Source of the DNA: a virus
DNA length: 21,277 nt
Strand: one strand, 5' to 3'
Virus record (IMG/VR): IMGVR_UViG_3300031758_004396
Coordinates: 1-21,277 of that record
In this document: one piece after another, positions 2,162 to 17,179 of the stretch
How the letters are laid out: the number at the start of each line of letters is the position of its first letter
How positions within the stretch are numbered: position 1 is the first letter of the stretch
Position numbers and translations under genes: made by a program
The notes under the pieces: generated by a model
The model's database searches: none
Told to the model about the DNA's origin: nothing
What the model saw: the letters and a program-made list of their open reading frames with translations, nothing else

Positions 2162-2313
2162 TATATTTTATTTCCTTTATCTTCTATTTTTCTTACAATA
2201 TATCCTATTACATCTCTAGGACTCCACTCTGGAGGTAATTGTAAATCTTTTAGTTCATGGACAATGTCATCTATAAATTGTTTTTTTATAACTACAAAAT
2301 TATCCCATTCCAT
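2161..2313 (-). CDS. 50-aa microprotein, first gene after the terminator
   Basis: A 50-residue ORF beginning MEWDNFVVIK. It contains LQLPPEWSPRDVIGYIV, which looks like a short helix-turn segment, and ends in lysines. The ATG at 2313 lies 6 nt after a TAGAAT -10 box, a leaderless arrangement, with no ribosome-binding site. Its stop overlaps the H1-like gene start (TAATG). Function unknown. The promoter geometry repeated at other operons is strong support for the start. Confidence 0.65.
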   Translation of the reverse strand: MEWDNFVVIKKQFIDDIVHELKDLQLPPEWSPRDVIGYIVRKIEDKGNKI

Positions 2314-2319
2314 ATACTT

Positions 2320-2348
2320 ATTCTACCATTTATAAAATGAAGGGGCAA
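2320..2348 (-). promoter_or_regulatory. Leaderless-type promoter embedded in the terminator
   Basis: TTGCCC (2343-2348), 17-nt spacer, TAGAAT (2320-2325), then 6 nt to ATG. The -35 lies in the 3' arm of the terminator hairpin at 2340-2369, so the two signals share bases. The -35 match is modest (TTG only). Confidence 0.55.
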
Positions 2349-2369
2349 GACCCTTGAGTCCTGCCCCTT
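2340..2369 (-). terminator. Rho-independent terminator after the Ig-like surface protein
   Basis: A strong hairpin on the minus strand: AAGGGGCA pairs with TGCCCCTT, continued by GGAC/GTC-type pairs for roughly 12 base pairs, then CATTTTAT as a short T-rich tail. It begins 11 nt after the stop of the 385-aa gene. It is the clearest terminator in the window and separates the accessory region from the microprotein region. Confidence 0.8.
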
Positions 2370-2380
2370 ATTTAATCAGA

Positions 2381-3538
2381 TTACTTTACGAGAGTAACCT
2401 TTGCAGTTGGATTCTTTTTATTCCACTTCTTAGCAAGGGAATTGAATGCCTTCTTCATTTCTGCGATAGCAGCAGCATTTGCAGCCTTAACTGCATCTAG
2501 TTCTGCCTTAGCGATGGCTTGTGCATCTGCAAGAGCCTTATCAGCAGAAACTTTAGCGGTTACGGCATCAGCCTTAAGCTTAGCAATTTCTGCATTGGCA
2601 GTTACAAGATCAGCAGCAGCCTTTAAAGCGGCAGCATCAGCAGCAGCCTTAGCGGTTGCAGCGGCAGCATCAGCAGCAGTTTTATCAGCAGCACGTGCTG
2701 ACTTTTCTGCAACAAGATCTGCCTGTGCTTTTGCTAGTTCTGCAGCAAGATCACGAACAGCAATTTCTGCATATGGAGACAAAGTTGGGGCTGTTAAGCC
2801 AACAACTGTGCTCGCACCATCTGTAGATGTTGTCAAAGAAAACTCTACTAATGAGCGTGTTGCTGTAGTTGGAAGAGTTAAAGAAAACTCCGCTGCTCCA
2901 AATGTTGCAAGTGTTGCACCAGTTGTAGCAGTTGTTGTCTCAAGAGTTCCACCAGAGCCAAATACACGACCAGTTACAGACTTTCCAGATACCTTGTTTC
3001 CAAATACATCTGTAGCAGTTACTGTAATGGTCTGCTTTGTTCCAGCAGCACCGCTTGCTGGGGCAGCAACGGCGAGAGTATTAATCTTGCCCACTGTTCC
3101 CTGTACGTAATAAGTTAGGGTTGTTCCCTGATTTGATACAACTACTGTACCAATTGCTGTCGTTTTAGTATATACATAAAACGTTGCAGTTGTTCCTGTT
3201 CCAGTTGCAACTGTCAAAGATGAAGATCCTGACGATGCAGTTACTGGAGAAGCAGCACTATGTAGAGCAGACACGATTGTGCAGTTTGTGCATGTTGCAG
3301 TTACTGCAGTTCCTGTATCTACTGTTGCTACAAAACGAAGTGCGTCTGCAGCATTTACTTCATTGTCTGCAGGGACTGGCAATGCAGCAGGTGTAGCAAT
3401 AGCGGAAGCAGTTGTATTAGCTGTTCCGTTAAGATCTACAGCGACTGTCATTACAGCAGCACTTGCAGGTGTTGCGATAAGAGTACCCATAGTCATGGCT
3501 GCAACCACGGCTAGAGCGATTTTCTTGAATGATTTCAT
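2381..3538 (-). CDS. Secreted Ig-like / Ala-rich coiled-coil surface protein
   Basis: 385 residues. Signal peptide at 1-28 (basic KSFKK, hydrophobic core, ATPASA-A cleavage-like site). The mature part is Thr/Ala/Ser-rich; a bacterial Ig-like (Big_1 type) segment lies at about 150-250, with DVFGNKVSG typical of that family. Residues 258-365 are an alanine-rich coiled coil, and the protein ends in a basic tail (KKWNKKNPTAK). CxxC at 83-86 could form a disulphide. The start has an AAGGAG ribosome-binding site and a terminator follows. Its composition resembles actinobacterial surface proteins, so a host origin, host-surface mimicry or superinfection exclusion is possible; a virion fibre is less likely given the signal peptide. 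Confidence 0.75.
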   Translation of the reverse strand: MKSFKKIALAVVAAMTMGTLIATPASAAVMTVAVDLNGTANTTASAIATPAALPVPADNEVNAADALRFVATVDTGTAVTATCTNCTIVSALHSAASPVTASSGSSSLTVATGTGTTATFYVYTKTTAIGTVVVSNQGTTLTYYVQGTVGKINTLAVAAPASGAAGTKQTITVTATDVFGNKVSGKSVTGRVFGSGGTLETTTATTGATLATFGAAEFSLTLPTTATRSLVEFSLTTSTDGASTVVGLTAPTLSPYAEIAVRDLAAELAKAQADLVAEKSARAADKTAADAAAATAKAAADAAALKAAADLVTANAEIAKLKADAVTAKVSADKALADAQAIAKAELDAVKAANAAAIAEMKKAFNSLAKKWNKKNPTAKVTLVK

Positions 3539-3584
3539 TCTTTTATTTCTCCTTATTTATTCTGTCTCTTTCTGAGGCAGAAAC

Positions 3585-3818
3585 TTAGTTTGTGTACGAA
3601 TTCCGCCAAATTGATGGGGAATGATTATCTTCTATTCTTTTTTTCATTTCAATATCCTCGTACATACGAACAATATGCATACATGGATCTTGCCCTTCAG
3701 CAAATTCCGCATCTTCTTCGTTGGACATTGGTAGTCCGTCATGGGTGTAACACACTGGAGCTCCGCACCAACCTTTTGCTACTCCGTAAGACATCCATTC
3801 ATCATATGTTAAATCCAT
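3585..3818 (-). CDS. 77-aa conserved phage hypothetical (GWCG..VC.THDG motif)
   Basis: The protein contains GWCGAPVCYTHDGLPMSNEE at about residues 17-36 and a DPCMHIV segment near 44-50. Small proteins with a GW(C/V)xxxVCxTHDGxPxTxEE core are widespread in actinobacteriophages and their hosts; I know no function for them. The ATG overlaps the thioredoxin stop by 10 nt, with GGAG about 8 nt upstream. The fixed Cys/His residues may bind a metal. Confidence 0.8.
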   Translation of the reverse strand: MDLTYDEWMSYGVAKGWCGAPVCYTHDGLPMSNEEDAEFAEGQDPCMHIVRMYEDIEMKKRIEDNHSPSIWRNSYTN

Positions 3819-4114
3819 CCTTCAAGCTCCTTTACGAGCTTGTGCTTCGGGTATGCTCCAACAAGTTTCTTTACTGGTATTCCTTTTTCAAATACTAGCA
3901 AGGTGGGAATACTTGTTATCTCATACTTTTGTGCCAACTCTGTTTGTTCATCTACATGAACTTTATAAACTTGTACTTTGTACTCGTCTTCTAACTCTTC
4001 TAATATTGGAGCAACCTTTAAACAAGGTCCACACCAATCCGCCCAGAAGTCTACTATCATTATATCATTTTCACCTAAAGACTTGCTGAAGGTTTCTTTT
4101 GTTAAATTAATCAT
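3809..4114 (-). CDS. trxA: Thioredoxin
   Basis: A 101-residue single-domain thioredoxin with the active site WCGPC at about residues 27-31, preceded by VDFWADW, and the cis-proline segment SIPTLLVF near 66-73. Family members reduce protein disulphides in the cytoplasm and may act as processivity or folding factors for phage enzymes. ATG at 4114 is chosen over an upstream in-frame start: it has a GGAGG site directly before it and overlaps the preceding stop by 8 nt, whereas the longer version would add 14 residues lacking any family match. It sits between a glycosylase-like gene and a phage hypothetical. Confidence 0.95.
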   Translation of the reverse strand: MINLTKETFSKSLGENDIMIVDFWADWCGPCLKVAPILEELEDEYKVQVYKVHVDEQTELAQKYEITSIPTLLVFEKGIPVKKLVGAYPKHKLVKELEGWI

Positions 4115-4580
4115 TATCCTCCACGTGAGTAGGCCAGTAGTAACTGCAAGATTCACAGCAAGTATATCCTAGTTGCCTATAATCAGCAAATTCAGAATAA
4201 AAATAATACTTATCTGGATCTTTCTCGTATAGTCTGCCCTTATGGGAATAATGTAAAGGCTCTTCTCCTAGCCACCAAGGCTCCTGAGACTCTAGAAACA
4301 TGAAGTTCTCTTGATATATCTCATCAAACTTCTTTCTTGTGCTATTTTTATAGCCACGCATGATGATCTCTTTGACTATGGCCTCATTGTATAAGAAGAG
4401 CCAGTCTTCATGACCCTCCCACATTTTGACTGCTGGGTGATTCTTCCAAGCACCTGAACTGTAAAGTCCAGCTAAAGACTTTAATACTTGCAGGTTTTCT
4501 ACACTCTGCTTGATAAGTCTTTTGCGATCTAAATGCTTTGCAGTATTTGCAAAGTCCGCCTCTGGTAAAAATGTTTGCAT
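4107..4580 (-). CDS. MSMEG_6728-like / pyrimidine-dimer DNA glycosylase family protein
   Basis: 157 residues. The N-terminus MQTFLPEADFANTAKHLD, then RKRLIKQSVENLQVLK and NHPAVKMWEGHE are the hallmark stretches of the actinobacterial MSMEG_6728 family, which is linked to the T4 endonuclease V type pyrimidine-dimer glycosylase family. A DNA-repair role against UV damage is the family-based guess; catalysis is not proven for this branch. The C-terminus has a CCESC cluster near 140-145, possibly binding metal. It is the first gene of an operon behind the promoter at 4587-4615, whose -10 lies 6 nt before the ATG. Confidence 0.85.
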   Translation of the reverse strand: MQTFLPEADFANTAKHLDRKRLIKQSVENLQVLKSLAGLYSSGAWKNHPAVKMWEGHEDWLFLYNEAIVKEIIMRGYKNSTRKKFDEIYQENFMFLESQEPWWLGEEPLHYSHKGRLYEKDPDKYYFYSEFADYRQLGYTCCESCSYYWPTHVEDND

Positions 4581-4586
4581 GTGCCT

Positions 4587-4615
4587 ATCCTACTAAATAA
4601 TGAAAGACTAGTCAA
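4587..4615 (-). promoter_or_regulatory. Leaderless-type promoter with a palindromic -35 region
   Basis: TTGACT (4610-4615), 17-nt spacer, TAGGAT (4587-4592), then 6 nt to the ATG at 4580; there is no ribosome-binding site. The -35 is centred in an 18-bp inverted repeat, GACTAGT-ATTG-ACTAGTC, at 4606-4623, which also covers the stop codon of the upstream gene. A repressor site is likely by position. Confidence 0.7.
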
Positions 4616-4617
4616 TA

Positions 4618-4836
4618 CTAGTCCTCGTTTTTTAATCTTTCCGCCTCTTCATTAAATTTATCCATAAACATTTGTATTACAAATAATGTAACTTCTTTTG
4701 CATTTTTATTTAATGCTAGCGCTTCTTCTGAATCTTCACTTACTCTTCCTGAAGGTATTGCGTTATACCATTTCTGATATAACGCAACAGCAACATCTTC
4801 AATAATGCCCTCAAGAACGGTGACATTATTAGCCAT
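4618..4836 (-). CDS. 72-aa helical hypothetical protein
   Basis: A small protein, predicted mostly helical and acidic at the end (EEAERLKNED). No cysteines or membrane segment. The central segment has YQKWYNAIPSG. It follows the subtilase gene with an 8-nt overlap (ATG inside its last codons) and an AAGGA site about 8 nt upstream, so it is co-transcribed with it. One possibility is a cytoplasmic partner for the protease, but only the adjacency suggests this. Family not recognised. Confidence 0.65.
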   Translation of the reverse strand: MANNVTVLEGIIEDVAVALYQKWYNAIPSGRVSEDSEEALALNKNAKEVTLFVIQMFMDKFNEEAERLKNED

Positions 4837-5743
4837 TTAACAATTCCTTATCTACGACTATTGCAGATATGGTCTTGCTTGTTAGCTTATTACCTTTAGT
4901 CTTCATCAAATCAATGATTTGTGAACTTGTTAAGGTAGGATTTTTTTGCTTTAAGCCATAATATACGGCTGCTGCAACCTGAACGGATATAGAAGTTCCA
5001 TCTTCATTAAACAGCATTCCGTTAGCATCAGATACTCTTAGCCTTCCTAGGGCAAACATATCTGTAATATTTTTATCATAGTTGGTATAAACTGCAGGGC
5101 CACCCGTGACAGAACTAGCGCTGACCGTTACTGCCTCTGTAAAGCATGATGGCCAAAATACTCTAGTCAAATCTCTTGCATTTCCTGCTGGCAGGAATAC
5201 TGGAACTCCAGCCTGATTCAATGACGAGATCAATCCTCTTGTTGCTGGGGTATTCGGGCAATAGTCTGCTATACGTAAATAATTTCCGTGTCCTTGCGAC
5301 ATTGCTACGGCAGTAATGTTATATTTATCTTTGTTATTTAATACCCATGTTAGAGCATTAACAAATGTTGACTCATTGGTAGTTTGTCTATCGCCATTTA
5401 CTGTTGCTCCGACAATTCTAATAAATACGATCTTTACATTTGGGTTTGTCAGAACTGATGCATGTGTCATCTTAGTTCCATGATTGAAGCCATTTCTAAG
5501 CATCTGTGAAATAGGCATAGAGGCTGCTCCTGGGCCCTCCATAAAGCTTTTACCATTAGCACAAGATGGCCAGTCTAGAATACATACTTCTTGGACTACC
5601 TTGTCCTTAAAAACTGGCAAACTAGCATTTAATGCTGTATCTAAAATTGCCACTGTTGCAGGTTGTGTATTTGCCACAACCGTATGTGTTGTTGTGATGG
5701 TGAGTACTGCTGCCAATACGGCAGTTATTAGTTTTTTATTCAT
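4829..5743 (-). CDS. Secreted subtilisin-family (S8) serine protease
   Basis: 304 residues from the ATG at 5743. Signal peptide at 1-24 (MNKKLITAVLAAVLTITTTH, AxA-like end). The catalytic triad is in family order: D35 in VAILDTAL, H88 in NHGTKMTH, S251 in DGTSISVQVAAA, with the oxyanion asparagine N188 in PAGNARD. It has no separate propeptide or C-terminal anchor and is compact for the family. The start is set by a promoter whose -10 (TAGAAT) ends 7 nt upstream; an in-frame TTG at 5779 falls inside the -35 box and is rejected. Expected to be exported and to cut surface or extracellular proteins, perhaps host receptors or competitor proteins (inference). Confidence 0.92.
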   Translation of the reverse strand: MNKKLITAVLAAVLTITTTHTVVANTQPATVAILDTALNASLPVFKDKVVQEVCILDWPSCANGKSFMEGPGAASMPISQMLRNGFNHGTKMTHASVLTNPNVKIVFIRIVGATVNGDRQTTNESTFVNALTWVLNNKDKYNITAVAMSQGHGNYLRIADYCPNTPATRGLISSLNQAGVPVFLPAGNARDLTRVFWPSCFTEAVTVSASSVTGGPAVYTNYDKNITDMFALGRLRVSDANGMLFNEDGTSISVQVAAAVYYGLKQKNPTLTSSQIIDLMKTKGNKLTSKTISAIVVDKELLNG

Positions 5744-5750
5744 AGGGTCT

Positions 5751-5779
5751 ATTCTACTAAATTGTAGCCAGTAGGTCAA
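5751..5779 (-). promoter_or_regulatory. Leaderless-type promoter for the subtilase operon
   Basis: TTGACC (5774-5779), 17-nt spacer, TAGAAT (5751-5756), 7 nt to the ATG at 5743. The -35 lies within a short inverted repeat TAGGT-ATTG-ACCTA (5772-5785), the same layout as at the 4587-4615 promoter. There is no ribosome-binding site between the -10 and the start. Confidence 0.7.
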
Positions 5780-5782
5780 TAC

Positions 5783-5965
5783 CTAGTTATTTGGAATGTC
5801 TGGCCTATTCTGTTTCTTTGAGTACCATTTTCCAGCGTCTAAATCTGGTGTTTTGCCTCCGCCCATCTCTATAATTACAGAGAGCATGGCTTTTACGTAT
5901 TCTAATTCATAATTAAGTCTAACTATTTCCATCTCAGCCAGCCTTAATCTTTCAGATTTTCTCAA
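5783..5965 (-). CDS. 60-aa coiled-coil hypothetical protein
   Basis: Residues 1-34 form one long helix with heptad-like leucines (RLRLAEMEIVRLNYELEYVK), suitable for dimerisation. The tail is polar with GGGKTPDLDAGKWYSKK. It starts at TTG 5965, overlapping the stop of the upstream zinc-ribbon gene, with AAGGA about 8 nt upstream. No known family. Possibly an accessory subunit of the neighbouring membrane or zinc protein, judged from coupling only. Confidence 0.6.
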   Translation of the reverse strand: MRKSERLRLAEMEIVRLNYELEYVKAMLSVIIEMGGGKTPDLDAGKWYSKKQNRPDIPNN

Positions 5966-6318
5966 TTATCTAATCCTTCACTATCCATAGGCGTTGGCGC
6001 AGTTGCCAAGCTTCCACAATTTGCACATTCCATATCTAAAAAGTATGTAGCAATTTCATAATCATCAAAAATAACTTTAACATTAAATATGTTACAGCCA
6101 CAAGCGCAAACGTGAGTAGGGGTTCCTCGAAGATCCATGGCATTATCATAATTATCTGGTCTGAGATTAATTATTTCATCCATTTCATCCTCATCCTCTT
6201 CATCGTCTTCAAAATTTTTATCAAGCACAACTACTGTGTGCTTGTCAAAGAAATCTCTAATTAAACCTACTGATATGAGTCCGAACAGTAGGGCGGCCAA
6301 TCTATTTAGCCACTTCAT
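5962..6318 (-). CDS. 118-aa membrane-anchored zinc-ribbon protein
   Basis: Residues 3-20 form one hydrophobic segment (LNRLAALLFGLISVGLI). A very acidic linker follows at 36-48 (EDDEEDEDEMDE), then a C-terminal domain with CACGC near 71-75 and CANCG near 98-102, a four-cysteine zinc ribbon. It probably sits at the inner membrane face with the zinc domain in the cytoplasm (positive-inside: RDFFDKH after the segment). The ATG is 6 nt after a TATAAT box, a leaderless arrangement. Not assigned to a named family. Confidence 0.75.
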   Translation of the reverse strand: MKWLNRLAALLFGLISVGLIRDFFDKHTVVVLDKNFEDDEEDEDEMDEIINLRPDNYDNAMDLRGTPTHVCACGCNIFNVKVIFDDYEIATYFLDMECANCGSLATAPTPMDSEGLDN

Positions 6319-6324
6319 ATCTTT

Positions 6325-6353
6325 ATTATACTCTAGACTTCAATTATTGTAAA
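6325..6353 (-). promoter_or_regulatory. Leaderless-type promoter for the zinc-ribbon membrane gene
   Basis: TTTACA (6348-6353), 17-nt spacer, TATAAT (6325-6330), 6 nt to the ATG at 6318. The -35 and spacer lie in the last codons of the upstream Ntn-hydrolase gene. No ribosome-binding site is present. Confidence 0.75.
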
Positions 6354-6899
6354 GGGGCCTCTTACGGTCATTATGAACTTAGAAGACGCCTCTAAAGCTG
6401 TTCTTACACGCTTGCGAGGAGTTTTAACAGCTGCCGTAGAGAACAATGATCCTAATGCTACCTGCTGGCCGCTTCCCTCTGCTAAGTATTCTACATCTAC
6501 TTCAGATATATGGAAGTCCACATCCATAATAAAAATTCTACCTGTATTTTGTACTGCAATAATTATAATTCCGCCTTCGTCACCATCTTCTGTATTTGAT
6601 CCAAACTTTCCATATCCATGTTCCTGATAAGCCTCTTTTATGGATTGAACAAATTTTGTTCTCATAAACTTATCTAAGTTTTTAAATCCTGTAGTTGGCT
6701 TATAGATAGGCGGTGTCCAATTGTATTGTAAAATTTGTCCCATTCTAAAACTATCAACAAAGCCTATGCCGTATTGCCCTATTTTAAAAACTTTAGAATC
6801 TGTTACTTGCAAAATTAGCCCAGACTTTTCGTCAGATGCGGCTGAGTCTCCGCCAAGATAGACTTTATTTCCAACTGCGAGGGCTACTATACAGGTCAT
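6333..6899 (-). CDS. Proteasome/HslV-like Ntn-hydrolase
   Basis: 188 residues beginning M-T-C-I-V-A, so removal of Met would expose Thr2 as the nucleophile. The proteasome beta-subunit pattern follows: GGDSAASD with D18 (canonical Asp17), K36 in DSKVFKIG (canonical Lys33), a GIGFVDSFRMGQIL helix, and GSGQQVALGS late in the chain. These are the residues expected for an active N-terminal-Thr peptidase forming a ring. No HslU or other ATPase gene lies in the window, so the partner may be a host AAA+ unfoldase. Cytoplasmic. The start follows a TACAAT -10 by 7 nt (leaderless type). Confidence 0.85.
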   Translation of the reverse strand: MTCIVALAVGNKVYLGGDSAASDEKSGLILQVTDSKVFKIGQYGIGFVDSFRMGQILQYNWTPPIYKPTTGFKNLDKFMRTKFVQSIKEAYQEHGYGKFGSNTEDGDEGGIIIIAVQNTGRIFIMDVDFHISEVDVEYLAEGSGQQVALGSLFSTAAVKTPRKRVRTALEASSKFIMTVRGPFTIIEV

Positions 6900-6906
6900 A
6901 TACCCT

Positions 6907-6935
6907 ATTGTACTATTTTTAAATTTCGGAGTCCA
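6907..6935 (-). promoter_or_regulatory. Leaderless-type promoter for the Ntn-hydrolase gene
   Basis: TGGACT (6930-6935), 17-nt spacer, TACAAT (6907-6912), 7 nt to the ATG at 6899. An AGGG in the gap is only about 3 nt from the ATG, too near to act as a normal ribosome-binding site. Confidence 0.6.
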
Positions 6936-7227
6936 GCTCGTTTAATTCAACTAAATTTAATTGTACTAGGGCATTTTCAAGCTCTGACTTTACTACAATT
7001 AGGTCCTGAATGGCATTATAATATTTGTCTTTCCATTCTGTCAGGTCCCGCTCAAGCTTATATAAAGATATTTTAAGGTCTTTTATCTCTAATTTAAGCT
7101 GGTCCTGCTCTCTTTCATTCTGCCTGTTCTTTTCTCTTCTAGTTTCCCTTATTCCAGAAATAATTGCTGTTCCCATGCCGCTTAAAATGGCGGCAGAAAT
7201 AGCCAGAATGATTGAGGTATAATCCAT
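6919..7227 (-). CDS. 102-aa membrane-anchored coiled-coil protein
   Basis: Residues 4-25 form one hydrophobic segment (YTSIILAISAAILSGMGTAI), then a basic patch (RETRREKNRQ) and a long coiled coil at 40-95 (LEIKDLKISLYKLERDL). The arrangement suggests a single-span protein with a cytoplasmic coil. Size and layout resemble small phage membrane proteins with spanin-, holin-accessory- or Rz-like shapes, but it is far from the lysis cassette. A TATAAT box ends 9 nt before the ATG. Function unknown. Confidence 0.7.
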   Translation of the reverse strand: MDYTSIILAISAAILSGMGTAIISGIRETRREKNRQNEREQDQLKLEIKDLKISLYKLERDLTEWKDKYYNAIQDLIVVKSELENALVQLNLVELNELDSEI

Positions 7228-7236
7228 AATAGATTA

Positions 7237-7242
7237 ATTATA
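7237..7242 (-). promoter_or_regulatory. Possible -10 box for the membrane coiled-coil gene
   Basis: A perfect TATAAT on the minus strand ends 9 nt before the ATG at 7227. No good -35 is seen at 16-18 nt (TTAGTT at best), so this is a weaker candidate than the other near-start promoters. Confidence 0.4.
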
Positions 7243-7256
7243 CCTTTAATTAAGTC

Positions 7257-7493
7257 CTAAACTAATAGCTCTGAGGCGGATATTTCTTCGCCCAAGTAGC
7301 GCTTCTTAAGAACAAACTCTCTTACATGATCTGCCCCACTCGATCTGCCAGCCAATATTATAACCCATCTTGGCTCTAATTTTGCATTTATGCAAGTCTC
7401 ACACATTAGCAAATTAATCGGCAGCAAAGAGGATTTCTTTGCATTTAATTTATGCTTGTTTTTATTGCAACTATAGCATAATATTTTATTCAT
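7257..7493 (-). CDS. 78-aa zinc-binding conserved phage protein
   Basis: An N-terminal CYSCNKNKHK (C6, C9) and an LLMCETC pair (C31, C34) make a four-cysteine zinc site. It is followed by EPRWVIILAGRSSGADHVREF, a conserved-looking core with RSSG. The ATG has an AGAGG site upstream and overlaps the preceding stop by 8 nt. It is the last gene of the WhiB operon. No named family assigned; a small adaptor or nucleic-acid-binding role is inferred from the zinc site. Confidence 0.75.
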   Translation of the reverse strand: MNKILCYSCNKNKHKLNAKKSSLLPINLLMCETCINAKLEPRWVIILAGRSSGADHVREFVLKKRYLGEEISASELLV

Positions 7494-7686
7494 TATTTTC
7501 CTCTACATGATGAAACACGATTTCGTCAACTATTGCGAATTCGTCATTTTCTAAAAGAACTTCGTAATCAGTTCCATCTTTTTGATACTTTACCATCGAA
7601 GCAAATGCTCCAAGTTGTTCAACTGTTCCATATACTTTTTCTGGGTATACATATACAATATTGATAATTTCATAATACTCTTCCAC
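7486..7686 (-). CDS. 66-aa acidic hypothetical protein
   Basis: A small acidic protein with alternating hydrophobic residues (EIINIVYVYPEKVYG, YEVLLENDEFAIVDEIVF), probably a beta-rich barrel-like fold. GTG start at 7686 (GTG-GAA-GAG) with a GGAGGG site 8 nt upstream. It overlaps both neighbours by 8-17 nt within the WhiB operon. No cysteines and no known domain. Confidence 0.65.
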   Translation of the reverse strand: MEEYYEIINIVYVYPEKVYGTVEQLGAFASMVKYQKDGTDYEVLLENDEFAIVDEIVFHHVEENNE

Positions 7687-8570: not shown

Positions 8571-8579
8571 CTATGTCAA
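8550..8579 (-). promoter_or_regulatory. Consensus promoter for the WhiB operon
   Basis: Both hexamers are perfect: TTGACA (8574-8579), 18-nt spacer, TATAAT (8550-8555), then 8 nt to the GTG at 8541, with no ribosome-binding site. It is among the strongest predicted promoters here, so control by a repressor at the flanking inverted repeat would make sense. Confidence 0.8.
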
Positions 8580-10796: not shown

Positions 10797-10802
10797 GCCT
10801 CT

Positions 10803-10831
10803 ATTATAGCATTTCTACTCTTCTTTTCGAA
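10803..10831 (-). promoter_or_regulatory. Extended -10 promoter of the lysis cassette
   Basis: TGC-TATAAT (-10 at 10803-10808) with a weak -35 TTCGAA (10826-10831) at 17 nt. The stretch TGCTATAATAGAGG is shared with the 1600-1630 promoter. The ATG begins 6 nt after the -10; AGAGG is present but too close to act as a ribosome-binding site. A 6-bp hairpin (10818-10834) lies across the -35. Confidence 0.7.
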
Positions 10832-11009: not shown

Positions 11010-13123
11010 TATATCCTCCTTGTCATGGCGGCAGCAATAATATTAGATGCAATAATTACTGGCACAATTACTTCCTGCGCCTTTTCTCTTTGATCGTCAG
11101 TCATATCTTTACCCCATTCTGATGGGCTAAGGACTTTTTCTAAATCTATATTGGTTAATGATCCTATTGGATCCGCCAAAAATGCTTCTGTTTGAACCTC
11201 TGTAGTTGCGTCTGCTAAAGTATAAGGCATTGTGGCGTTTTCTGCTGCTGCCTCTCTATCTTTAAATTCCACAAATGCGGTTGCTAATTGAGGATTAGAT
11301 TTCATTGTTTCTGCAATTACTGCAACTTCAGATGATTTAATTCCAAGATCTTCTGCGACCTCAATCTTTGCTTCATTTGTTAATGCGGTTAGTGTTTGAC
11401 TAACTGCAGCAACTTGTTCTGGGCTTAATACAATTAATTTATTATCTTTGCTTGTTAAATTAGCTATAACGGAAGTAAGATCTTCTGAGGTTCCCGTCCC
11501 TTTTTCTGGAATTAATGCCAACAACTCTTTATCTTTTATGATAACATTATCTTGTGATTCTTCAGAAGGTTCAGTCGGAGATGGTTCAGGTTCAGGAGTT
11601 GGGCTTGGATCTATATCCGTTGTCTGAGGTGAAGGCTCTGGTGAAGGCTCAGGAGTGGGCTGAGGATCATCAGTTGGTTCTGGCTTCGGTTCATCTGTGG
11701 TTTGAGGGGTTGGCTCAGGAGTGGGATCGACTGTTTCAGTTTGCTCAGGTGATGGCTGTGGTGAAGGCTCAGGAGTAGCTTCCTCTGTTGGTTCTGAAGA
11801 AGGCTCAGGGCTTGGCTCAGGGCTTGGCTCAGGGCTTGGCTCAGGGCTTGGATCAGGAGTGGGCTGATTAGCTGCTGCAGCGGCGGCTTGTGCAAGAGCA
11901 GTGGCAATTTCTCTAGCCATCTGTTCTTCATAATAATCCCAGGCATCCTCAATGGCACTTGTTAAATTTATAATTGACTGTTCATAAACACTAATAGCAT
12001 TATTTTTTGCAGTTAAGGCATTAGATGTTGTAGTTATTGAATTATTATATGACGTTGTTTTAGTTGTTAAAGTTTGATTATATACATTTAATTTTGCAAC
12101 TTCTTGATTATAAATAGATAGTTTATTGTTACGAACCGTAGTTGCTGCTACTTGTGCAGCATATGCAGTATTGTATGCATCAATTTGTTCTTGAGTTGCT
12201 TGAGTTCCATGAGAGAATGTATTTAAATTACAGCTAAAGTTTTGCCCCCACACCCTTGGATCTCCAGCATAGTCACATCCTGCTCCAGTCCAGCCTCCAG
12301 GAATCGCCCATCCAAGATGATAAGATCCTGGGCCTCCACCGTTATACCACCATATTTCTACATCTAAAGTCTTGTCTAAGCTTACATCATATATAGGTGA
12401 ATATGGACTCCATGTGGCTCCCTGCTCAACCCAATTATTTGTTGCAAGGTTTCCGTCTATATACATTCTAAAACCATCATCTGTATATCCTGCAAATTTT
12501 GTTGTTGTAAACCAGGAAGGAACAGTTATACGCCCAGTAAACTTAACAATGATATCTTCGTAATATCCACAAACTGGGAGATTCATTGAATTTGAATTCC
12601 ATACACCAGTACATATAACAGAACCAGGTACTGCTATATGCTGTCCATTAACATAGCCGTCTCTTAATAGATTATAAACAGTATATTCAAGTCCTACCCC
12701 ACCCTGCACATATGTTTGTGCTGTAGATAGATTTATGTTTGCTATATCAAGGGCATCCTGAGCATTATTTTTATCTGTTAATGCCGTTGCCACTATTGCA
12801 GTTTGAGTATCAACTGCGGCTTCAGATGCTTCTTTTTCTGATAAGGCTGTTGCTTCTGCTGCTAATGCTAAATCATAAGCATCTTCTTTATCTTCTTTAT
12901 CTTCTTTTGCAGCAACTGCCACATCATATTTATCTTCAGCTACAGAAATTAAAGATTGAAATTCTTCTTTATATCCAAGATTAGGTACGCTATTATTTAA
13001 TTCTTGTATTTCTTGAGCAGCCGCCGTTAATTCGTCTGGATTACTTTGAGCAGGAGCGAGAAACAGCCATCCAAATCCTAAGATTGCGGCTAATGATAGT
13101 CTCCATAGCTTAGTTCCAGTCAA
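11009..13123 (-). CDS. 704-aa secreted PA14-domain protein with Pro-rich linker
   Basis: Domains in order: signal peptide 1-27 (LSLAAILGFGWLFLAPAQS); coiled coil 30-138; PA14-like domain about 145-280 with FTGRITVP, AGYTDDGFRMYIDGN and WYNGGG, the usual carbohydrate-binding/Ca2+ loop signature; second coiled coil about 306-415; Pro-rich linker 420-522 (PSPEPSPEP); acidic C-domain; hydrophobic tail 685-700 followed by TRRI, which may anchor it in the membrane. TTG start at 13123 has GAGGAG 7 nt upstream. Export suggests a host-surface or adhesion protein; a tail spike is possible but less likely with a signal peptide. Confidence 0.85.
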   Translation of the reverse strand: MTGTKLWRLSLAAILGFGWLFLAPAQSNPDELTAAAQEIQELNNSVPNLGYKEEFQSLISVAEDKYDVAVAAKEDKEDKEDAYDLALAAEATALSEKEASEAAVDTQTAIVATALTDKNNAQDALDIANINLSTAQTYVQGGVGLEYTVYNLLRDGYVNGQHIAVPGSVICTGVWNSNSMNLPVCGYYEDIIVKFTGRITVPSWFTTTKFAGYTDDGFRMYIDGNLATNNWVEQGATWSPYSPIYDVSLDKTLDVEIWWYNGGGPGSYHLGWAIPGGWTGAGCDYAGDPRVWGQNFSCNLNTFSHGTQATQEQIDAYNTAYAAQVAATTVRNNKLSIYNQEVAKLNVYNQTLTTKTTSYNNSITTTSNALTAKNNAISVYEQSIINLTSAIEDAWDYYEEQMAREIATALAQAAAAAANQPTPDPSPEPSPEPSPEPSPEPSSEPTEEATPEPSPQPSPEQTETVDPTPEPTPQTTDEPKPEPTDDPQPTPEPSPEPSPQTTDIDPSPTPEPEPSPTEPSEESQDNVIIKDKELLALIPEKGTGTSEDLTSVIANLTSKDNKLIVLSPEQVAAVSQTLTALTNEAKIEVAEDLGIKSSEVAVIAETMKSNPQLATAFVEFKDREAAAENATMPYTLADATTEVQTEAFLADPIGSLTNIDLEKVLSPSEWGKDMTDDQREKAQEVIVPVIIASNIIAAAMTRRI
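11802..11849 (-). repeat. 12-bp exact tandem repeat, four copies
   Basis: Four exact copies of ggctcagggctt (plus-strand reading) encode part of the PSPE run of the PA14 protein linker. Degenerate copies extend across about 11575-11860. Such repeats can gain or lose 12-bp units without frameshift, changing linker length. Confidence 0.85.
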
Positions 13124-13136
13124 TTAAAAACTCCTC

Positions 13137-13168
13137 GTTACAACTTTTGTAACAAGTTAATTATAACA
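13137..13168 (-). promoter_or_regulatory. PA14 gene promoter and +1 hairpin
   Basis: An extended -10 (TGTTATAAT, 13160-13168) without a recognisable -35. A perfect 7-bp inverted repeat GTTACAA-AAG-TTGTAAC (13137-13153) begins about 6 nt after the -10, at the predicted transcription start. The ribosome-binding site GAGGAG follows directly. It could be a 5'-end protective hairpin or an operator. Confidence 0.6.
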
Positions 13169-13173
13169 TTGAA

Positions 13174-13356
13174 CTATTTAGCGTTATCTGTTTTGTAGAA
13201 GCCTGAACCTTTGAATTGAATGCCAAATGAACCATACTGCTTGATCATTGCAGAGCCACAATTGGAGCAAAGCTCAACAACTGATGCGTCATTGATTGAC
13301 TTGGTAACTTCCTTAACATGTTCACATAGAACACATTTATATTCGTAAACTGGCAC
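13174..13356 (-). CDS. FmdB-type zinc-ribbon protein
   Basis: 60 residues starting MPVYEYKCVLCEHVKE, the classic FmdB/CxxC_CXXC_SSSS N-terminus, with the second pair CSNCG near 30-34 and a following SFGIQFKGSGFYKTD. All four zinc ligands are present. Such proteins are annotated as regulators, but their real role is unclear; they are widely found in phages of actinobacteria and cyanobacteria. GTG start at 13356 with AGGAGAG upstream. It has its own promoter (13453-13481) and a leader of about 90 nt with inverted repeats. Confidence 0.9.
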   Translation of the reverse strand: MPVYEYKCVLCEHVKEVTKSINDASVVELCSNCGSAMIKQYGSFGIQFKGSGFYKTDNAK

Positions 13357-13375
13357 TATCTCTCCTAAATTTTAA

Positions 13376-13405
13376 TGAGCAGTTTATACACATGCTCAGG
13401 TGTAT
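13376..13405 (-). promoter_or_regulatory. Two mutually exclusive hairpins in the fmdB-like leader
   Basis: TGAGCA/TGCTCA (13376-13381 with 13393-13398) and ATACAC/GTGTAT (13386-13391 with 13400-13405) overlap, so only one stem can form at a time. The pair lies in the leader about 20 nt before the GTG codon. It may be an RNA switch, or chance. Confidence 0.35.
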
Positions 13406-13429
13406 CCTAAGGCGTAACTATTCGGCCCG

Positions 13430-13481
13430 TGTCCATCTACATGGACAGAACCATTATACCTTATTTGACCTTGATTGTCTT
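13430..13481 (-). promoter_or_regulatory. Promoter of the fmdB-like gene with +1 hairpin
   Basis: AAGACA (13476-13481), 17-nt spacer, TATAAT (13453-13458), followed 5 nt later by the inverted repeat TGTCCAT-GTAG-ATGGACA (13430-13447) at the predicted start site. The leader is about 90 nt. The -10 lies just beyond the stop codon of hsp20. Confidence 0.6.
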
Positions 13482-13880
13482 TGGCTTTTTGTCTTCTGGA
13501 ATTAGACGATCTACATCAATGTGTAGCATGCCATTTTTAAATTCCGCTCCGACTACCTCCATATATTCACCAAGCGCAAATGTGCGTGTGAATTTACGGG
13601 CGGCAATTCCTTTGTGAAGAACTTCTCCAGTCTCTTCTGTAGTAACTTCACCCTTAACAATAAGAGTCTGATTATCTACTGAGACCTCAATATCCTTCTT
13701 ATCAAATCCTGCCACCGCCAAAGATACACGATATGAATCTTCGTCTACCTTGACAATGTTGTATGGCGGGAAAGACTGGGCCGTAGCCTCACGATGGATA
13801 TTGTTTAGTCTTTCTACTTCACGATTGAAGCCAATAAAAAATGGATCTCTAAAAAGATCCATAGCAAATGTTGTTACCAT
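13461..13880 (-). CDS. hsp20: Hsp20 small heat-shock protein
   Basis: 139 residues with an alpha-crystallin domain at about 38-130: FPPYNIVKVDEDSYRVSLAVAGF, KKDIEVSVDNQTLIVKG, and the C-terminal GMLHIDVDRLIPEDKKPKTIKV containing an IPE/KTI-type anchoring motif. Small heat-shock proteins hold unfolded proteins without ATP; phage copies may protect virion assembly. The ATG at 13880 has a strong AAAGGAGG site. It has its own promoter (13940-13968), with a 9-bp palindrome across the predicted start. Also called IbpA-like. Confidence 0.95.
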   Translation of the reverse strand: MVTTFAMDLFRDPFFIGFNREVERLNNIHREATAQSFPPYNIVKVDEDSYRVSLAVAGFDKKDIEVSVDNQTLIVKGEVTTEETGEVLHKGIAARKFTRTFALGEYMEVVGAEFKNGMLHIDVDRLIPEDKKPKTIKVK

Positions 13881-13908
13881 TTTATTCCTCCTTTAAGCGA
13901 ATAAATTA

Positions 13909-13939
13909 ATATGTGGGCCCCTATTGGCGACCCACATAT
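13909..13939. repeat. 9-bp inverted repeat over the hsp20 start site
   Basis: Arms atatgtggg (13909-13917) and cccacatat (13931-13939), 13-bp spacer, directly abutting the -10 box (13940-13945). The geometry recalls CIRCE and HAIR heat-shock operators, but the sequence does not match them. Confidence 0.75.
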
Positions 13940-13968
13940 ATTATAGCAAATTAGATTTTTTAAGTCTA
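13940..13968 (-). promoter_or_regulatory. Extended -10 promoter of hsp20
   Basis: TAGACT (13963-13968), 17-nt spacer, TGC-extended TATAAT (13940-13945). The -35 overlaps the stop codon region of the upstream 60-aa gene. The leader is about 50 nt and carries a good ribosome-binding site. Confidence 0.65.
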
Positions 13969-14148
13969 GTAAATTTTCTTCTTCTTGTCGTGCATCTTTT
14001 TCTCATCTGCCTCTGAGGCATATAAGGCTCTCATTTGGGCAGAGGCTGCTGATTTTCCTGCATGACATCCTACTAATTCGTTTGATCCCTGTTTTACTAC
14101 AGCGTATCCTTTGCATCCCGCAAAGTTTTGTTTAATTTCCCAAGGCAT
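13966..14148 (-). CDS. 60-aa conserved phage domain (GCHxxxxxAxxQMRALYASE)
   Basis: It contains NFAGCKGYAVVKQGSNELVGCH and KSAASAQMRALYASEADE at about residues 8-48. This two-part motif is widespread in phages, often within head-maturation or minor-head proteins; here it stands alone, so it may be a split-off module of the head machinery. Cysteines C12 and C28 are conserved in that motif. The C-terminus is basic (KKMHDKKKKIY). The ATG at 14148 has the TAGGAGAATAAAATG cassette and follows the previous stop by 9 nt. Confidence 0.8.
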   Translation of the reverse strand: MPWEIKQNFAGCKGYAVVKQGSNELVGCHAGKSAASAQMRALYASEADEKKMHDKKKKIY

Positions 14149-14157
14149 TTTATTCTC

Positions 14158-14475
14158 CTAATTGTTAGGGGGTTCTGGTAGATTCATTTCTATCAGCCCC
14201 ATTTCTTTTGCGATCTTTTGTCCTTCTGGACTGATGTGAAGCATAGCTTCAAGATTCTCATCATATTCTACTTGCAATAAACCTTTTTCATAAAGCTTCA
14301 TAAGAGATTCGTCTACATATCTAATATGGGCTTCCCAAAGTTCTGGTGCAATTTCTTTTGCCTTATCTTCAATGGCATAAATAATTTCTCCATTTTCATC
14401 CACACCTGCTAAACTTATGGCACCAATTTCTAGATAATGTTCTAACTGCATCTCTTCTTCTCTTTCTTCATCCAT
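14158..14475 (-). CDS. 105-aa acidic phage hypothetical
   Basis: A strongly acidic N-terminus (MDEEREEEMQLEHYLE). The core has IYAIEDKAKEIAPELWEAHIRYVDESLMKLYEKGLLQVEYDENLEAMLHISPEG, which looks like a helix plus beta-hairpin wing; a winged-helix fold is possible. The end is KEMGLIEMNLPEPPNN. The ATG at 14475 is 6 nt after a TATAAT box (leaderless type), just behind the tRNA. Function unknown. Confidence 0.75.
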   Translation of the reverse strand: MDEEREEEMQLEHYLEIGAISLAGVDENGEIIYAIEDKAKEIAPELWEAHIRYVDESLMKLYEKGLLQVEYDENLEAMLHISPEGQKIAKEMGLIEMNLPEPPNN

Positions 14476-14481
14476 AGTATT

Positions 14482-14510
14482 ATTATACTCTCTTTTGTGT
14501 GGCGTGTAGG
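14482..14510 (-). promoter_or_regulatory. Leaderless-type promoter overlapping the tRNA 3' end
   Basis: TATAAT (14482-14487), 6 nt to the ATG at 14475. The -35 at 17 nt is CCTACA (14505-14510), which is the 3' side of the tRNA T-stem and acceptor junction; it is a poor match, forced by tRNA sequence. Confidence 0.55.
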
Positions 14511-14571
14511 ACTTGAACCTACGACGGCCAAATTATGAGTTTGGGGCTCTAACCAACTGAGCTAACGCCAC
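14498..14571 (-). tRNA. tRNA with CAU anticodon (Met or Ile2)
   Basis: A full 74-nt cloverleaf: 7-bp acceptor GTGGCGT/ACGCCAC, D-arm GCTC..GAGC with AGTTGGTTA loop, anticodon stem CCAAA/TTTGG with loop CTCATAA (anticodon CAT), variable CCGTC, T-arm GTAGG/CCTAC with TTCAAGT, discriminator A. CCA is not encoded. The G1-C72 pair and the weak anticodon stem rule out initiator tRNA. It could be elongator Met, or Ile2 reading AUA after lysidine modification; the ATA-rich codon use of the window favours Ile2, but the sequence alone does not decide. Confidence 0.95.
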
Positions 14572-14577
14572 CTAACC

Positions 14578-14829
14578 CTATTGTATTGTCCCGTCCTCAT
14601 TTTTGTCAATAGTTGTTTCTACCAACTGTTGTACATAATCTGAGAAATGTTTTCTAACGCTTCCTGGTGGTCGTGCTCCAAGAGATTTCCACAGTCTCTT
14701 GTATTCAATTACATTAGCAAATGTTGTTGGGCATAACGTGTTTCCCTCATACTCTTTTAATACAGTAGGAAGGGGCACATGCTTACCACAACACTTACAT
14801 TCTTTTGCTCTTTCTTGATATATGCTCAC
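14578..14829 (-). CDS. 83-aa zinc-binding phage hypothetical
   Basis: It has an N-terminal CKCCGKHVPLPTVL motif (C11, C13, C14) and one further cysteine in NTLCPTTFAN (C33), which together could hold zinc. A helical part follows: VIEYKRLWKSLG, then RKHFSDYVQQLVETTID. Its GTG start overlaps the terminase stop (GTGA) with GGAG 5 nt upstream, so translation is coupled to TerL. Small HNH- or zinc-containing proteins beside terminases are common, but no HNH motif is visible here. Unknown function. Confidence 0.75.
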   Translation of the reverse strand: MSIYQERAKECKCCGKHVPLPTVLKEYEGNTLCPTTFANVIEYKRLWKSLGARPPGSVRKHFSDYVQQLVETTIDKNEDGTIQ

Positions 14830-16616
14830 AGTATCTCCATACCCTCTAAAGCGTCTGCCAATTTTGAAGGCATTCTTGGCGGCCTAACCATATTTAATAC
14901 AATTTCATCCTGCTCTTTTGATGGCCTACGCATTAATGAATCATAGGTATGCACATCAATTTCTTCATTACTTTCAAATCTAGTTCTACTTATAGCGTTA
15001 TATATAGAACCACAAACTGCATCCGCCAAGTCTTTTGAACCTTTTCTTGGATGGTCTACCCTATCTCTCATAATCCTAAGCTGTAAAAGCTCATCAATTA
15101 AAAGCTTAATATGTGGTCCGCTCAACCTATCCTCAGCAATCACCATTGCCATATCGTCGTAATGTTTTTTGGCTACAGATAAAGTCTCTGTATTTATTCC
15201 ATATTGTTTTAATTGCTGCATCATATCGTGAGAGTTCCAGCGATCAAATGTGCAGACTCTTATCTTAAATCCTTTTGTTCTTAAAGATAGAATATAATCT
15301 TTAACCTCTGTGAAGTCTACGGACTTATCTGAAGTCGGTGTCCAGTATCTTACTGCGTCAACTTCTACAATTGGGGCAGGCTGTGAGTATGTATCAGTTA
15401 CTTTAACATTAACCCATTTTTGAACATGTGCCATAGACACAGCACAATGGTCATGTTTTTGTGCCAAGTCTACATGTATAAAATATTCTTTATCTGGGTC
15501 TGGCAAAAACCAGTTTTCAAATCTGCCAAAATTATCTACGGCTAAGGACATATTGTTAAATGCCCGCTCAACCTTCTCACGAGATTTAAAAAATGCATCA
15601 ATTGCTTCTGATGGCATACATGCAAATCTTCCCATAGCATCTGGCATATTCTTATAAAATTCTACTTTAAAGTTATCTATTGTTTTAGTTGGATTGACTT
15701 CCCATGTAGGTCTTTTTAATGCATATACTTTAGGTATCTTATAGGAAATAATATTATCTTCTTCCCACTCCACCTCAATTTCATTTCCTTCTGTGCCGTC
15801 TGGCAAACCTTCGTCCATCTTTAAGACTTTATTTCTTAGGATTACTTCTTTTTCAGCTATAACAGAATTATAAAACTTTTGTATTGGATCATTCTTAAAA
15901 CGGGGGAAGGACAAAAGAATAACCTTTCCGTAGTCTGGGAAACGTGAAACTACCGATCCTCTATACATATCGTATATTGCATCTGCTGTTTTTGCTTGGT
16001 CATGCCCAGTTGTATTCTCTGTAGCAAATCCTGAAATTTCATCAAGGATAACTGCTATTACGTTATAACCTTCCCACGCCTCACGCTCAGAGTGTCCAGA
16101 GTGAACGGTTATTGCCTTGTTAAATTTCATCTCAGAAGCCTTTGCTTCATACTTACCAATAAACCAAGGCGATCTATCTATTCTAGTTTTAAATCCTTTA
16201 AAGAAAACATTGTTTGCCTGCTGTGCGTTAATAGCAATATTAAGAATATCTATTGAATCTCCAGGAGGTTTTCCATAATATGTTGCTGGGTCTTTCAAGC
16301 AGAGCAACAAGTAAACCATATAAGATACTGCAATTGTTGAGCAATAATCTTTGCCGCTACCTTTTCCTAATTGTGCAATTACTTCGTTACAGGTTTGCTT
16401 GAAGCGACGTCGGCCTTCTTCTTCTCCAAATAATTTAATAAGAGTGGATTCTTTATAGATCTGAGAGCTTTTTTCGATGAGCGTATGTTGGTACTCCGAA
16501 AGTGGCGGGAGTCCAAGATAATTTGTTCCTGTGACAAATGTTCGTAAATCGACTGGTCTTTCATCAAATTCCTCTCCGTCTAGGATATCAATGAGATCTG
16601 AAAAATCAAGATCCAC
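14826..16616 (-). CDS. terL: Terminase large subunit (ATPase and nuclease)
   Basis: Numbered from the TTG at 16628 (600 aa). Walker A AQLGKGSGKD at 85-94, with Asp94 where Ser/Thr is usual, and Walker B VIAVILDE at 190-197. A C-terminal RNase H-like nuclease carries acids D387 (FIHVDLAQ), D462 (CTFDRW) and D536 (KDLADAV). It pumps and cuts concatemeric DNA at the portal. I prefer GTG at 16616 (residue 5) as start because GAGG lies 6 nt before it, while the TTG has only a weak site. It overlaps terS by 11 nt. Length is usual for the family. Confidence 0.95.
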   Translation of the reverse strand: MDLDFSDLIDILDGEEFDERPVDLRTFVTGTNYLGLPPLSEYQHTLIEKSSQIYKESTLIKLFGEEEGRRRFKQTCNEVIAQLGKGSGKDYCSTIAVSYMVYLLLCLKDPATYYGKPPGDSIDILNIAINAQQANNVFFKGFKTRIDRSPWFIGKYEAKASEMKFNKAITVHSGHSEREAWEGYNVIAVILDEISGFATENTTGHDQAKTADAIYDMYRGSVVSRFPDYGKVILLSFPRFKNDPIQKFYNSVIAEKEVILRNKVLKMDEGLPDGTEGNEIEVEWEEDNIISYKIPKVYALKRPTWEVNPTKTIDNFKVEFYKNMPDAMGRFACMPSEAIDAFFKSREKVERAFNNMSLAVDNFGRFENWFLPDPDKEYFIHVDLAQKHDHCAVSMAHVQKWVNVKVTDTYSQPAPIVEVDAVRYWTPTSDKSVDFTEVKDYILSLRTKGFKIRVCTFDRWNSHDMMQQLKQYGINTETLSVAKKHYDDMAMVIAEDRLSGPHIKLLIDELLQLRIMRDRVDHPRKGSKDLADAVCGSIYNAISRTRFESNEEIDVHTYDSLMRRPSKEQDEIVLNMVRPPRMPSKLADALEGMEIL

Positions 16617-17142
16617 TAGCTTCCTCAATTATCTCTATAGGTTCTACAACTCCAGTTATCTGTGCAAGTCTACGCATAATTTCTTTTCTTACCTGCGGAT
16701 ATTCTGCTGAGACATCCTTTAGTATACCAACCAAAATTTCTTGCTTGCGTTCCGTCTCCGCAATTTGATTTGCCAATTCCACATTGTCCAATAAGCCAAC
16801 CTCTTGCAGCATGCCAATTCTTTTGCCTTCAATGTCTGCAATTAATTTTAGGGCGGTAGCCTTGACGTTTAATTGACCTGCTTGGTCTGCGTCCTCTACG
16901 GTCTTCCACGCCTCTTTAATAAGCATAGCGTAGTGTTGGTCTGCTCCAGAGATGGCCTGCTTTGCCCTCTCACGGGCCCCAGAATCGTTTTTAACGACAT
17001 CTTTCCACTCATCTATATACCCTAACACTTCTGCCCGCTTAAAACCCGTCAGGGCGGCAATCTGGGTAGGGTTATTTCCCTTAAGTAATTCCTCAACAAC
17101 CTTATTCATGCGATCAAAATGATCAGCTAATTCAATGTCCAT
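16606..17142 (-). CDS. terS: Terminase small subunit
   Basis: 178 residues. The N-terminal HTH-like part (residues 10-46: VVEELLKGNNPTQIAALTGFKRAEVLGYIDEW) is the DNA-recognition module typical of small terminases. A central helical oligomerisation region follows (VKATALKLIADIEGKRIGMLQEVGLL), then an acidic C-terminus (EPIEIIEEASGS). It would recognise the packaging site and load TerL. It directly precedes terL with a short overlap. A TACAAT box ends 8 nt before the ATG, with no ribosome-binding site. Confidence 0.85.
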   Translation of the reverse strand: MDIELADHFDRMNKVVEELLKGNNPTQIAALTGFKRAEVLGYIDEWKDVVKNDSGARERAKQAISGADQHYAMLIKEAWKTVEDADQAGQLNVKATALKLIADIEGKRIGMLQEVGLLDNVELANQIAETERKQEILVGILKDVSAEYPQVRKEIMRRLAQITGVVEPIEIIEEASGS

Positions 17143-17150
17143 ATGTAACC

Positions 17151-17179
17151 ATTGTACTCTTAGTCAACTAAAATATCAA
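17151..17179 (-). promoter_or_regulatory. Leaderless-type promoter of the terminase operon
   Basis: TTGATA (17174-17179), 17-nt spacer, TACAAT (17151-17156), 8 nt to the ATG at 17142. A 12-bp inverted repeat TTAGT-TG-ACTAA (17160-17171) fills the spacer and resembles the -35 palindromes upstream of 4580 and 5743. Confidence 0.65.

Follow-up and report, generated by a model that had tools for sequence, protein, structure and literature searches.

Nine genes of an uncultured phage very probably begin at sigma-A/sigma-70-type promoters seated on their start codons, which would leave their transcripts leaderless or nearly so. The genes lie in the IMG/VR virus record IMGVR_UViG_3300031758_004396, whose entire 21,277 bases (guanine-plus-cytosine (GC) content 38%) are referred to here as the window; all window genes treated below are on the minus strand. 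A previous sequence-only reading had listed ten leaderless starts, nine of them operon-first (1593, 2313, 4580, 5743, 6318, 6899, 8541, 10796 and 14475) and the tenth that of terS (17142), each 6-8 nucleotides (nt) behind a -10 box. Eight of them (2313, 4580, 5743, 6318, 6899, 10796, 14475 and 17142) are supported by the present analysis, whereas 1593 and 8541 are not, and a ninth leaderless-type start, 7227, which was absent from that list, has its box at 9 nt. The nine genes are:

2161-2348, minus strand: gene 2313 (50 amino acids), predicted leaderless; TAGAAT at 2320-2325 (6 nt before the start), TTGCCC -35 at 2343-2348.
4107-4615, minus strand: gene 4580, pyrimidine dimer glycosylase family PF03013, predicted leaderless; TAGGAT at 4587-4592 (6 nt), TTGACT at 4610-4615.
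4829-5779, minus strand: gene 5743, subtilase family PF00082, predicted leaderless; TAGAAT at 5751-5756 (7 nt), TTGACC at 5774-5779.
5962-6353, minus strand: gene 6318 (118 amino acids), predicted leaderless; TATAAT at 6325-6330 (6 nt), TTTACA -35 at 6348-6353.
6333-6935, minus strand: gene 6899, HslV-family peptidase, phrog_1040, predicted leaderless; TACAAT at 6907-6912 (7 nt), TGGACT at 6930-6935.
6919-7242, minus strand: gene 7227 (102 amino acids), predicted near-leaderless; TATAAT at 7237-7242, 9 nt before the ATG, -35 usually absent.
10575-10808, minus strand: gene 10796 (73 amino acids), predicted leaderless; TATAAT at 10803-10808 (6 nt), AATGC just before the box.
14158-14487, minus strand: gene 14475 (105 amino acids), predicted leaderless, directly behind a tRNA-Met; TATAAT at 14482-14487 (6 nt).
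16606-17179, minus strand: terS-like gene 17142, phrog_9507, predicted leaderless; TACAAT at 17151-17156 (8 nt), TTGATA -35 at 17174-17179.

The conservation of the boxes in orthologs carries most of this conclusion. Relatives were the best 80 of at least 597 IMG/VR contigs with a confirmed match to TerL, plus loci fetched later for the ortholog sets; four loci (L012, L019, L030 and L064) were replaced by longer records. In each ortholog, whether of a test or a control gene, every in-frame start lying no more than 30 nt from the aligned start was considered, and the ortholog scored if one of them had a box 5-9 nt upstream. Orthologs counted only if the sequence around the start was distinct, and they were dropped if they had no usable start, lay too near the end of the locus or aligned only after residue 12. 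With a box match of at least 4/6, the eight supported starts kept the box in 428 of 473 orthologs, whereas 30 control genes had one in 72 of 1236; requiring 5/6 or better gave 400/473 and 25/1236. The same 4/6 boxes placed 14-18 and 23-27 nt upstream occurred 131 and 77 times at the eight starts and 123 and 185 times in the controls. By site, the box was kept in 13/13 orthologs at 2313, 61/68 at 4580 (37/68 at the stricter 5/6), 92/93 at 5743, 57/57 at 6318, 82/88 at 6899, 50/50 at 10796, 19/49 at 14475 and 54/55 at 17142. At 7227, 53 of 65 orthologs were boxed, 48 of these 53 at a spacing of 9 nt and seven with a -35 element. Divergent orthologs, with less than 60% protein identity, retained the box in 191 of 231 cases over the eight starts, including 84/85 at 5743, 37/37 at 6318, 44/50 at 6899 and 8/8 each at 10796 and 2313.

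Further features point in the same direction. The sequence-only reading had placed a -35 element upstream of most of these boxes, and indeed, a match of at least 4/6 with a spacer of 15-20 nt was present in the boxed orthologs of 2313 (13/13), 4580 (58/61), 5743 (91/92) and 6318 (57/57); the remaining sites gave 37/54 (17142), 35/50 (10796), 38/82 (6899) and 0/19 (14475). Substitutions in the first codons behind the box favour the third codon position at most sites; terS, for instance, has 13/11/79 changes at codon positions 1/2/3, and 6318 has 26/5/87. The bases immediately before the box differ by site: boxed orthologs carry TTTAG in 49/61 cases at 4580 and in 86/92 at 5743, and AATGA or AATGC in 12/13 at 2313 and 33/50 at 10796. 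These differences suggest more than one promoter type among the leaderless sites. A distinct promoter class TTTAGTAnnAT was considered and dropped, as it comprised only three called groups, two of which were one subtilase-like gene split by clustering.

A survey of spacing over all called genes gave a position-specific peak. It covered 97 pieces (1.16 Mb, window included) with a simple coding-score gene caller and tested every in-frame ATG or GTG from the coding-score start upward for a box of at least 5/6. A scan of related phages for boxes near start codons had been proposed earlier as a check, and its outcome is positive: a box exactly 6 nt upstream was found in 84 of 1388 genes, compared with 12.4 ± 5.3 at control spacings (0-3 and 10-44 nt). 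Reduced to non-redundant families, the counts are 25/469 and 4.8 ± 2.4. Among families with a measured gap to the preceding gene, the 6-nt box occurred in 1/203 that abut or overlap it, in 10/66 with a gap of 11-60 nt and in 13/162 with more than 60 nt. A -35 element (match of at least 4/6, spacer 16-19 nt) accompanied 106 of the 179 genes boxed at 6-8 nt, as against 9/43, 9/36, 12/29 and 16/47 at other spacings.

From the boxes, their spacing, their conservation and the start codons behind them, we infer the following course of events. The -10 box, 6-9 nt before the start codon, would recruit the sigma-A-type RNA polymerase of the host. In the usual promoter geometry, a box 6 nt upstream makes the first base of the codon +1; transcription would thus start at the first codon or up to about 3 nt before it, and the ribosome would begin on this leaderless or near-leaderless 5' end, a mode of initiation that actinobacteria are known to use for leaderless transcripts (PMC3160421, PMC7148126). 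The genes behind each first gene would be read from the same transcript, mostly via Shine-Dalgarno (SD) sites. Such a fusion of promoter and start would be used where a gene follows a gap, and leader-bearing promoters would be used elsewhere, as predicted for genes 1545 and 8508.

Several observations weigh against this interpretation. The eight genes had been picked for the box that they carry in the window, so that agreement of close relatives is expected, and among orthologs below 60% identity the box is poorly kept at 14475 (5/30), 4580 (5/12) and terS (0/1). At 5743 (217/95/211) and 10796 (53/20/55), the preference for the third codon position is weak or missing. At spacings of 8-9 nt (terS and 7227), transcripts with a leader of 1-3 nt are no less likely than leaderless ones. 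The near mutual exclusion of box and SD site among called genes (an SD site in 2/179 boxed and 463/1209 unboxed genes) is weak evidence and was set aside, because it is partly geometric: the box occupies the SD position. Finally, with stricter gene calls, the excess is small when taken genome by genome. Boxes at 6-8 nt, compared with controls at 12-14, 16-18, 20-22 and 26-28 nt, number 10 vs 5, 0, 6 and 6 in genome G001, 5 vs 1, 3, 3 and 3 in G003, 6 vs 1, 0, 1 and 3 in G004, and 6 vs 0, 1, 0 and 1 in the window. In G002 it is not clear and hardly above the controls (12 vs 4, 7, 6 and 15).

Could the promoters be real and yet yield leaders of 3-8 nt, with translation coupled to the upstream gene? 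Such leaders would fit terS, where 38 of 54 boxed relatives have a spacing of 8 nt, and 7227, where 48 of 53 have 9 nt. However, the spacing at the main peak is exactly 6 nt, and an SD site is lacking at all eight starts, which together make this explanation improbable in our view. The lack of a usable ribosome-binding site at the listed codons, noted in the earlier reading, is borne out: an SD-like core occurs only at 4580, where it is an AGGA inside the TAGGAT box itself. The complementary claim that internal genes use SD sites stands. A core of at least 4 nt precedes 26 of 34 other starts (three of these 34 coordinates fall on no start codon), but SD sites also lie behind the two putative leader-bearing promoters.

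It is very improbable that each of the ten listed codons begins a leaderless gene. It is true that a TAnnnT-type box is present at ten of ten, at 6 nt from 1593, 2313, 4580, 6318, 10796 and 14475, at 7 nt from 5743 and 6899 and at 8 nt from 8541 and 17142, and that each of the ten codons is an ATG or GTG. Two of them, however, show a different organization in relatives. The first is 1593:

1387-1605, minus strand: gene 1545 with a putative leader-bearing promoter; TATAAT at 1600-1605, 5'-terminal hairpin at 1569-1592, AGGAG at 1552-1556, start ATG at 1545.

An ATG, GTG or TTG lies 6-8 nt from the box in only 20 of 42 relatives, none lies at exactly 6 nt in 23 of 42, and the frame opened at 1593 meets a stop within ten codons in 14 of 42. 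Instead, relatives of gene 1545 have a TATAAT-type box 51-58 nt before the ATG, followed by a short stem and then by CTATAGGAG before the start; the loop reads TTCTAGA or TACTAGT in nearly all of them, and AGGAG precedes the gene in the aligned relatives. The alignment (A1) holds 42 of 44 upstream regions, with L159 and L168 omitted as their chosen start lay directly behind the box; identical upstream sequences had been removed from five sets (24, 21, 22, 38 and 25). Over these 42 distinct sequences, 98.6% of the cells in the aligned stem pair, and both sides are changed in 53 cells. The covariation score of 0.502 exceeds that of shuffles (0.274 ± 0.020) and of slid positions of the stem, which score no more than 0.142. 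By two other measures the stem is not unusual: 240/500 shuffles reach its 3 pairs altered on both sides, and 52/500 reach its 8 further pair types. The covarying hairpin, together with a start codon in only 20 of 42 relatives, leads us to assign the box at 1593 to the leader-bearing gene 1545, with the hairpin at or next to the predicted 5' end of its transcript. An alternative in which 1593 opens a micro open reading frame for a leaderless leader peptide, considered for the window, G001 and G002, was abandoned when the larger set showed a covarying hairpin and an unconserved reading frame. The hairpin leader (window 1552-1605, minus strand; L108-L176) has a single copy in each of the window, G001 and G002, and was not seen in the pieces of G003 and G004. 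An Rfam scan of the window at the gathering score returned tRNA only, and no family for this hairpin.

The second is 8541:

8281-8579, minus strand: promoter claimed for 8541, probably leader-bearing; TTGACA at 8574-8579, TATAAT at 8550-8555, AAGGA at 8513-8517, ATG at 8508.

This promoter (TTGACA, 18 nt, TATAAT) matches the consensus at 12 of 12 positions and is conserved in relatives. As a gene start, 8541 fares less well: of 10 distinct relatives, only 5 retain an in-frame start at this position; in L494 the sixth codon of the frame is a stop, and L498 and L499 lack the GTG. ATG 8508, 33 nt downstream and behind AAGGA, is the probable start of the conserved protein; an AGGA precedes the equivalent ATG at 15 loci in a search whose pattern required AGGA (L031 gives two rows). 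We had at first accepted 8541 as a leaderless start, and gave it up after this evidence from conservation and the downstream AGGA. The next gene downstream of gene 8508 encodes a WhiB-family regulator. An inverted repeat, CCGCAGCA / TGCTGCGG at window 8528-8570, has one arm in the promoter spacer and the other in the leader; the arms change together in L037 and L038 and not in L489 and L495. It is a possible operator of the WhiB-holding operon.

Within the window itself, the comparison with shuffled upstream sequences that had been suggested gives a moderate excess: 8 of 43 starts have a box of at least 4/6, compared with 2.31 ± 1.45 in 2000 dinucleotide shuffles, of which the maximum was also 8. 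Other ATG and GTG codons on the sense strand are boxed in 35 of 706 cases (Fisher p = 0.002), and a generic scan of the window for promoter pairs shows no excess (66 vs 63.4 ± 6.5 in shuffles). The decisive evidence is that from the relatives. While these window counts would agree with chance matches in AT-rich gaps, and with translation from upstream readthrough RNA without SD sites, the spacing-specific peak and the conservation of the boxes in relatives leave this explanation with next to no credibility.

Gene 14475 shows that box and SD site can substitute for one another. Among its 49 orthologs, 19 have the box, 18 have an SD site instead and 12 have neither, which we read as a gene that can be either leaderless or SD-read from a transcript starting upstream. 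A tRNA-like 3' end, recognized by a T-loop pattern, lies within 80 nt in 10 of the 19 orthologs with the box and in 16 of the 18 with an SD site. In the window, the gene upstream is:

14497-14609, minus strand: tRNA-Met (14497-14571) with a promoter-like pair, TTGACA at 14604-14609 and TACAAT at 14580-14585.

These orthologs form a natural series in which a promoter box and an SD site replace each other before one and the same gene.

The promoter of terS contains an additional element:

17160-17171, minus strand: dyad TTAGTTGACTAA, in the spacer of the terS promoter.

By a loose pattern, the dyad is found in this spacer in 50 of 51 upstream regions. In the form TAGTYRACTA it occurs at 100 sites in the 97 pieces, compared with 6, 3 and 8 in three simulated sets, with many sites in terS promoters and others elsewhere; it is a candidate operator. 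We rejected the dyad as a general part of leaderless promoters, since it stood before a leaderless-type box in only 54 of 200 readings (both strands counted). In L085 (G001:60001-80000), three copies lie within 600 bases at about 9.2-9.8 kb, adjoining GTTTCATGTGAAAC, which resembles a parS site.

Another hairpin of the window, at 2340-2369, is terminator-like, has 13 pairs (the most in the scan) and includes in its stem the -35 element of the predicted leaderless promoter of 2313; the relatives displayed also have a GC-rich hairpin of this kind ahead of the box. Over window positions 1-20000, terminator-like sites are about twofold commoner than in shuffles (28 vs 14.3 ± 3.9).

How widespread is the arrangement? 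The earlier suggestion that the phage has made it the grid of its gene expression goes too far, because leaderless-type starts are a minority in longer relatives. Three such genomes have a box at 6-8 nt in 11/119, 13/147 and 5/90 called genes. The corresponding control counts are 5, 4 and 1 (12-14 nt) and 3, 6 and 3 (18-20 nt), and a part of the 6-8 nt cases is chance. The boxed cases in the three include terS (for G003 the scored ATG lies two codons before the usual one) and the head maturation protease, recognized in each by its start sequence and, in the two genomes tested, as phrog_9427; a DNA polymerase is boxed in G002. Of the annotated plus-strand starts of the Streptomyces phages Gilson and Samisti12, 7/215 and 4/76 have a box exactly 6 nt upstream; no other spacing between 0 and 39 nt gives as many. 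This excess indicates that the arrangement extends past the close relatives of the window, with most genes lacking it.

Gilson and Samisti12 belong to the Stanwilliamsviridae, a family that TerL of the window matches at up to 63.6% identity (63.6% and 58.2% for these two phages); TerS identity to this family reaches 51.8% among the matches listed. The gene neighbourhood is similar. The window encodes a WhiB-family regulator, a CHAP endolysin, an Hsp20 protein, an HslV-family peptidase, a Cas4-like nuclease, a RuvC-like resolvase and tRNA-Met, and the Gilson annotation likewise holds WhiB, RuvC-like and CRISPR/Cas-associated genes. The two phages differ from the window in their GC content (47-49% vs 38%) and in terS, which overlaps the preceding gene and starts without a box in Gilson and Samisti12, whereas it is boxed in the window. 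The presence of WhiB and the kinship with Streptomyces phages indicate that the host is probably actinobacterial. A genome scan with TerL returned two contigs (L103 and L104) in bins labelled Cytophagaceae and cyanobacterium, into which they were probably wrongly binned; the sole WhiB match of the cyanobacterium-labelled bin sits on contig C31, presumably the phage contig itself. Among 14 control genomes, only Corynebacterium glutamicum had a WhiB match.

The geometry described here has bacterial precedents. According to a survey of bacterial genomes, leaderless genes with a TA-like (TANNNT) signal are frequent in Actinobacteria and Deinococcus-Thermus, and leaderless genes make up 19.2% of actinobacterial genes on average (PMC3160421). 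These TA-like genes have a Pribnow-type box about 12 bp upstream of the start and no SD site (PMC3160421), as in the window; those of the window are AT-rich phage genes whose boxes are fuller (TATAAT/TAGAAT) and often accompanied by a -35 element. A box at a fixed short distance and no SD site characterize eight of the ten claimed starts, and 7227 as well. At 1593 the codon behind the box is not the start of a translated gene, and at 8541, as judged by conservation only, it is probably not one either. Genes of another bacterial phylum with equal promoter and start-codon geometry have likewise been interpreted as leaderless. In mycobacteria, about 14% of genes are leaderless (PMC7148126).

Leaderless transcripts have also been predicted or reported for phages. 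For cluster O mycobacteriophages (the Corndog group), leaderless promoters with +1 on the first base of the first codon have been predicted (PMC4351075); at least three such promoters (PL1, PR2 and PL2) are named there, compared with nine within 15 kb in the window that were tested by conservation. Mycobacteriophage Adephagia has one gene with a predicted leaderless promoter (PMC11373665). In Thermus phage phiYS40, most middle and late transcripts are reported to lack a leader (PMC3594737), a wide reliance on leaderless messenger RNA as predicted here, in a host of a different phylum and with a reported shift in IF2/IF3 (PMC3594737). Searches of open-licence papers gave no earlier account of leaderless promoters in the present phage group. 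Since such promoters were already predicted or reported in other phages, the phage of the window is a well-supported further case and not the first of its kind.

Do the promoters sort the operons into two translational classes, leaderless and leader-bearing, such that a change in the translation machinery of the host or in a regulator of the phage could shift expression during infection? The leaderless class would hold terS and the HslV-like peptidase and, in relatives, the head maturation protease and DNA polymerase; the leader class would hold gene 1545 with its covarying hairpin and the leader before the WhiB-holding operon. We regard such a switch as unlikely, if conceivable.

In summary, spacing statistics and hundreds of orthologs, that is, sequence data by themselves, indicate that an uncultured phage group would start many of its operons leaderlessly. 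A by-product is the conserved 5'-terminal hairpin leader of gene 1545, which has no Rfam match in the window. For the annotation of these phages, gene callers that expect SD sites can misplace the starts of their genes.

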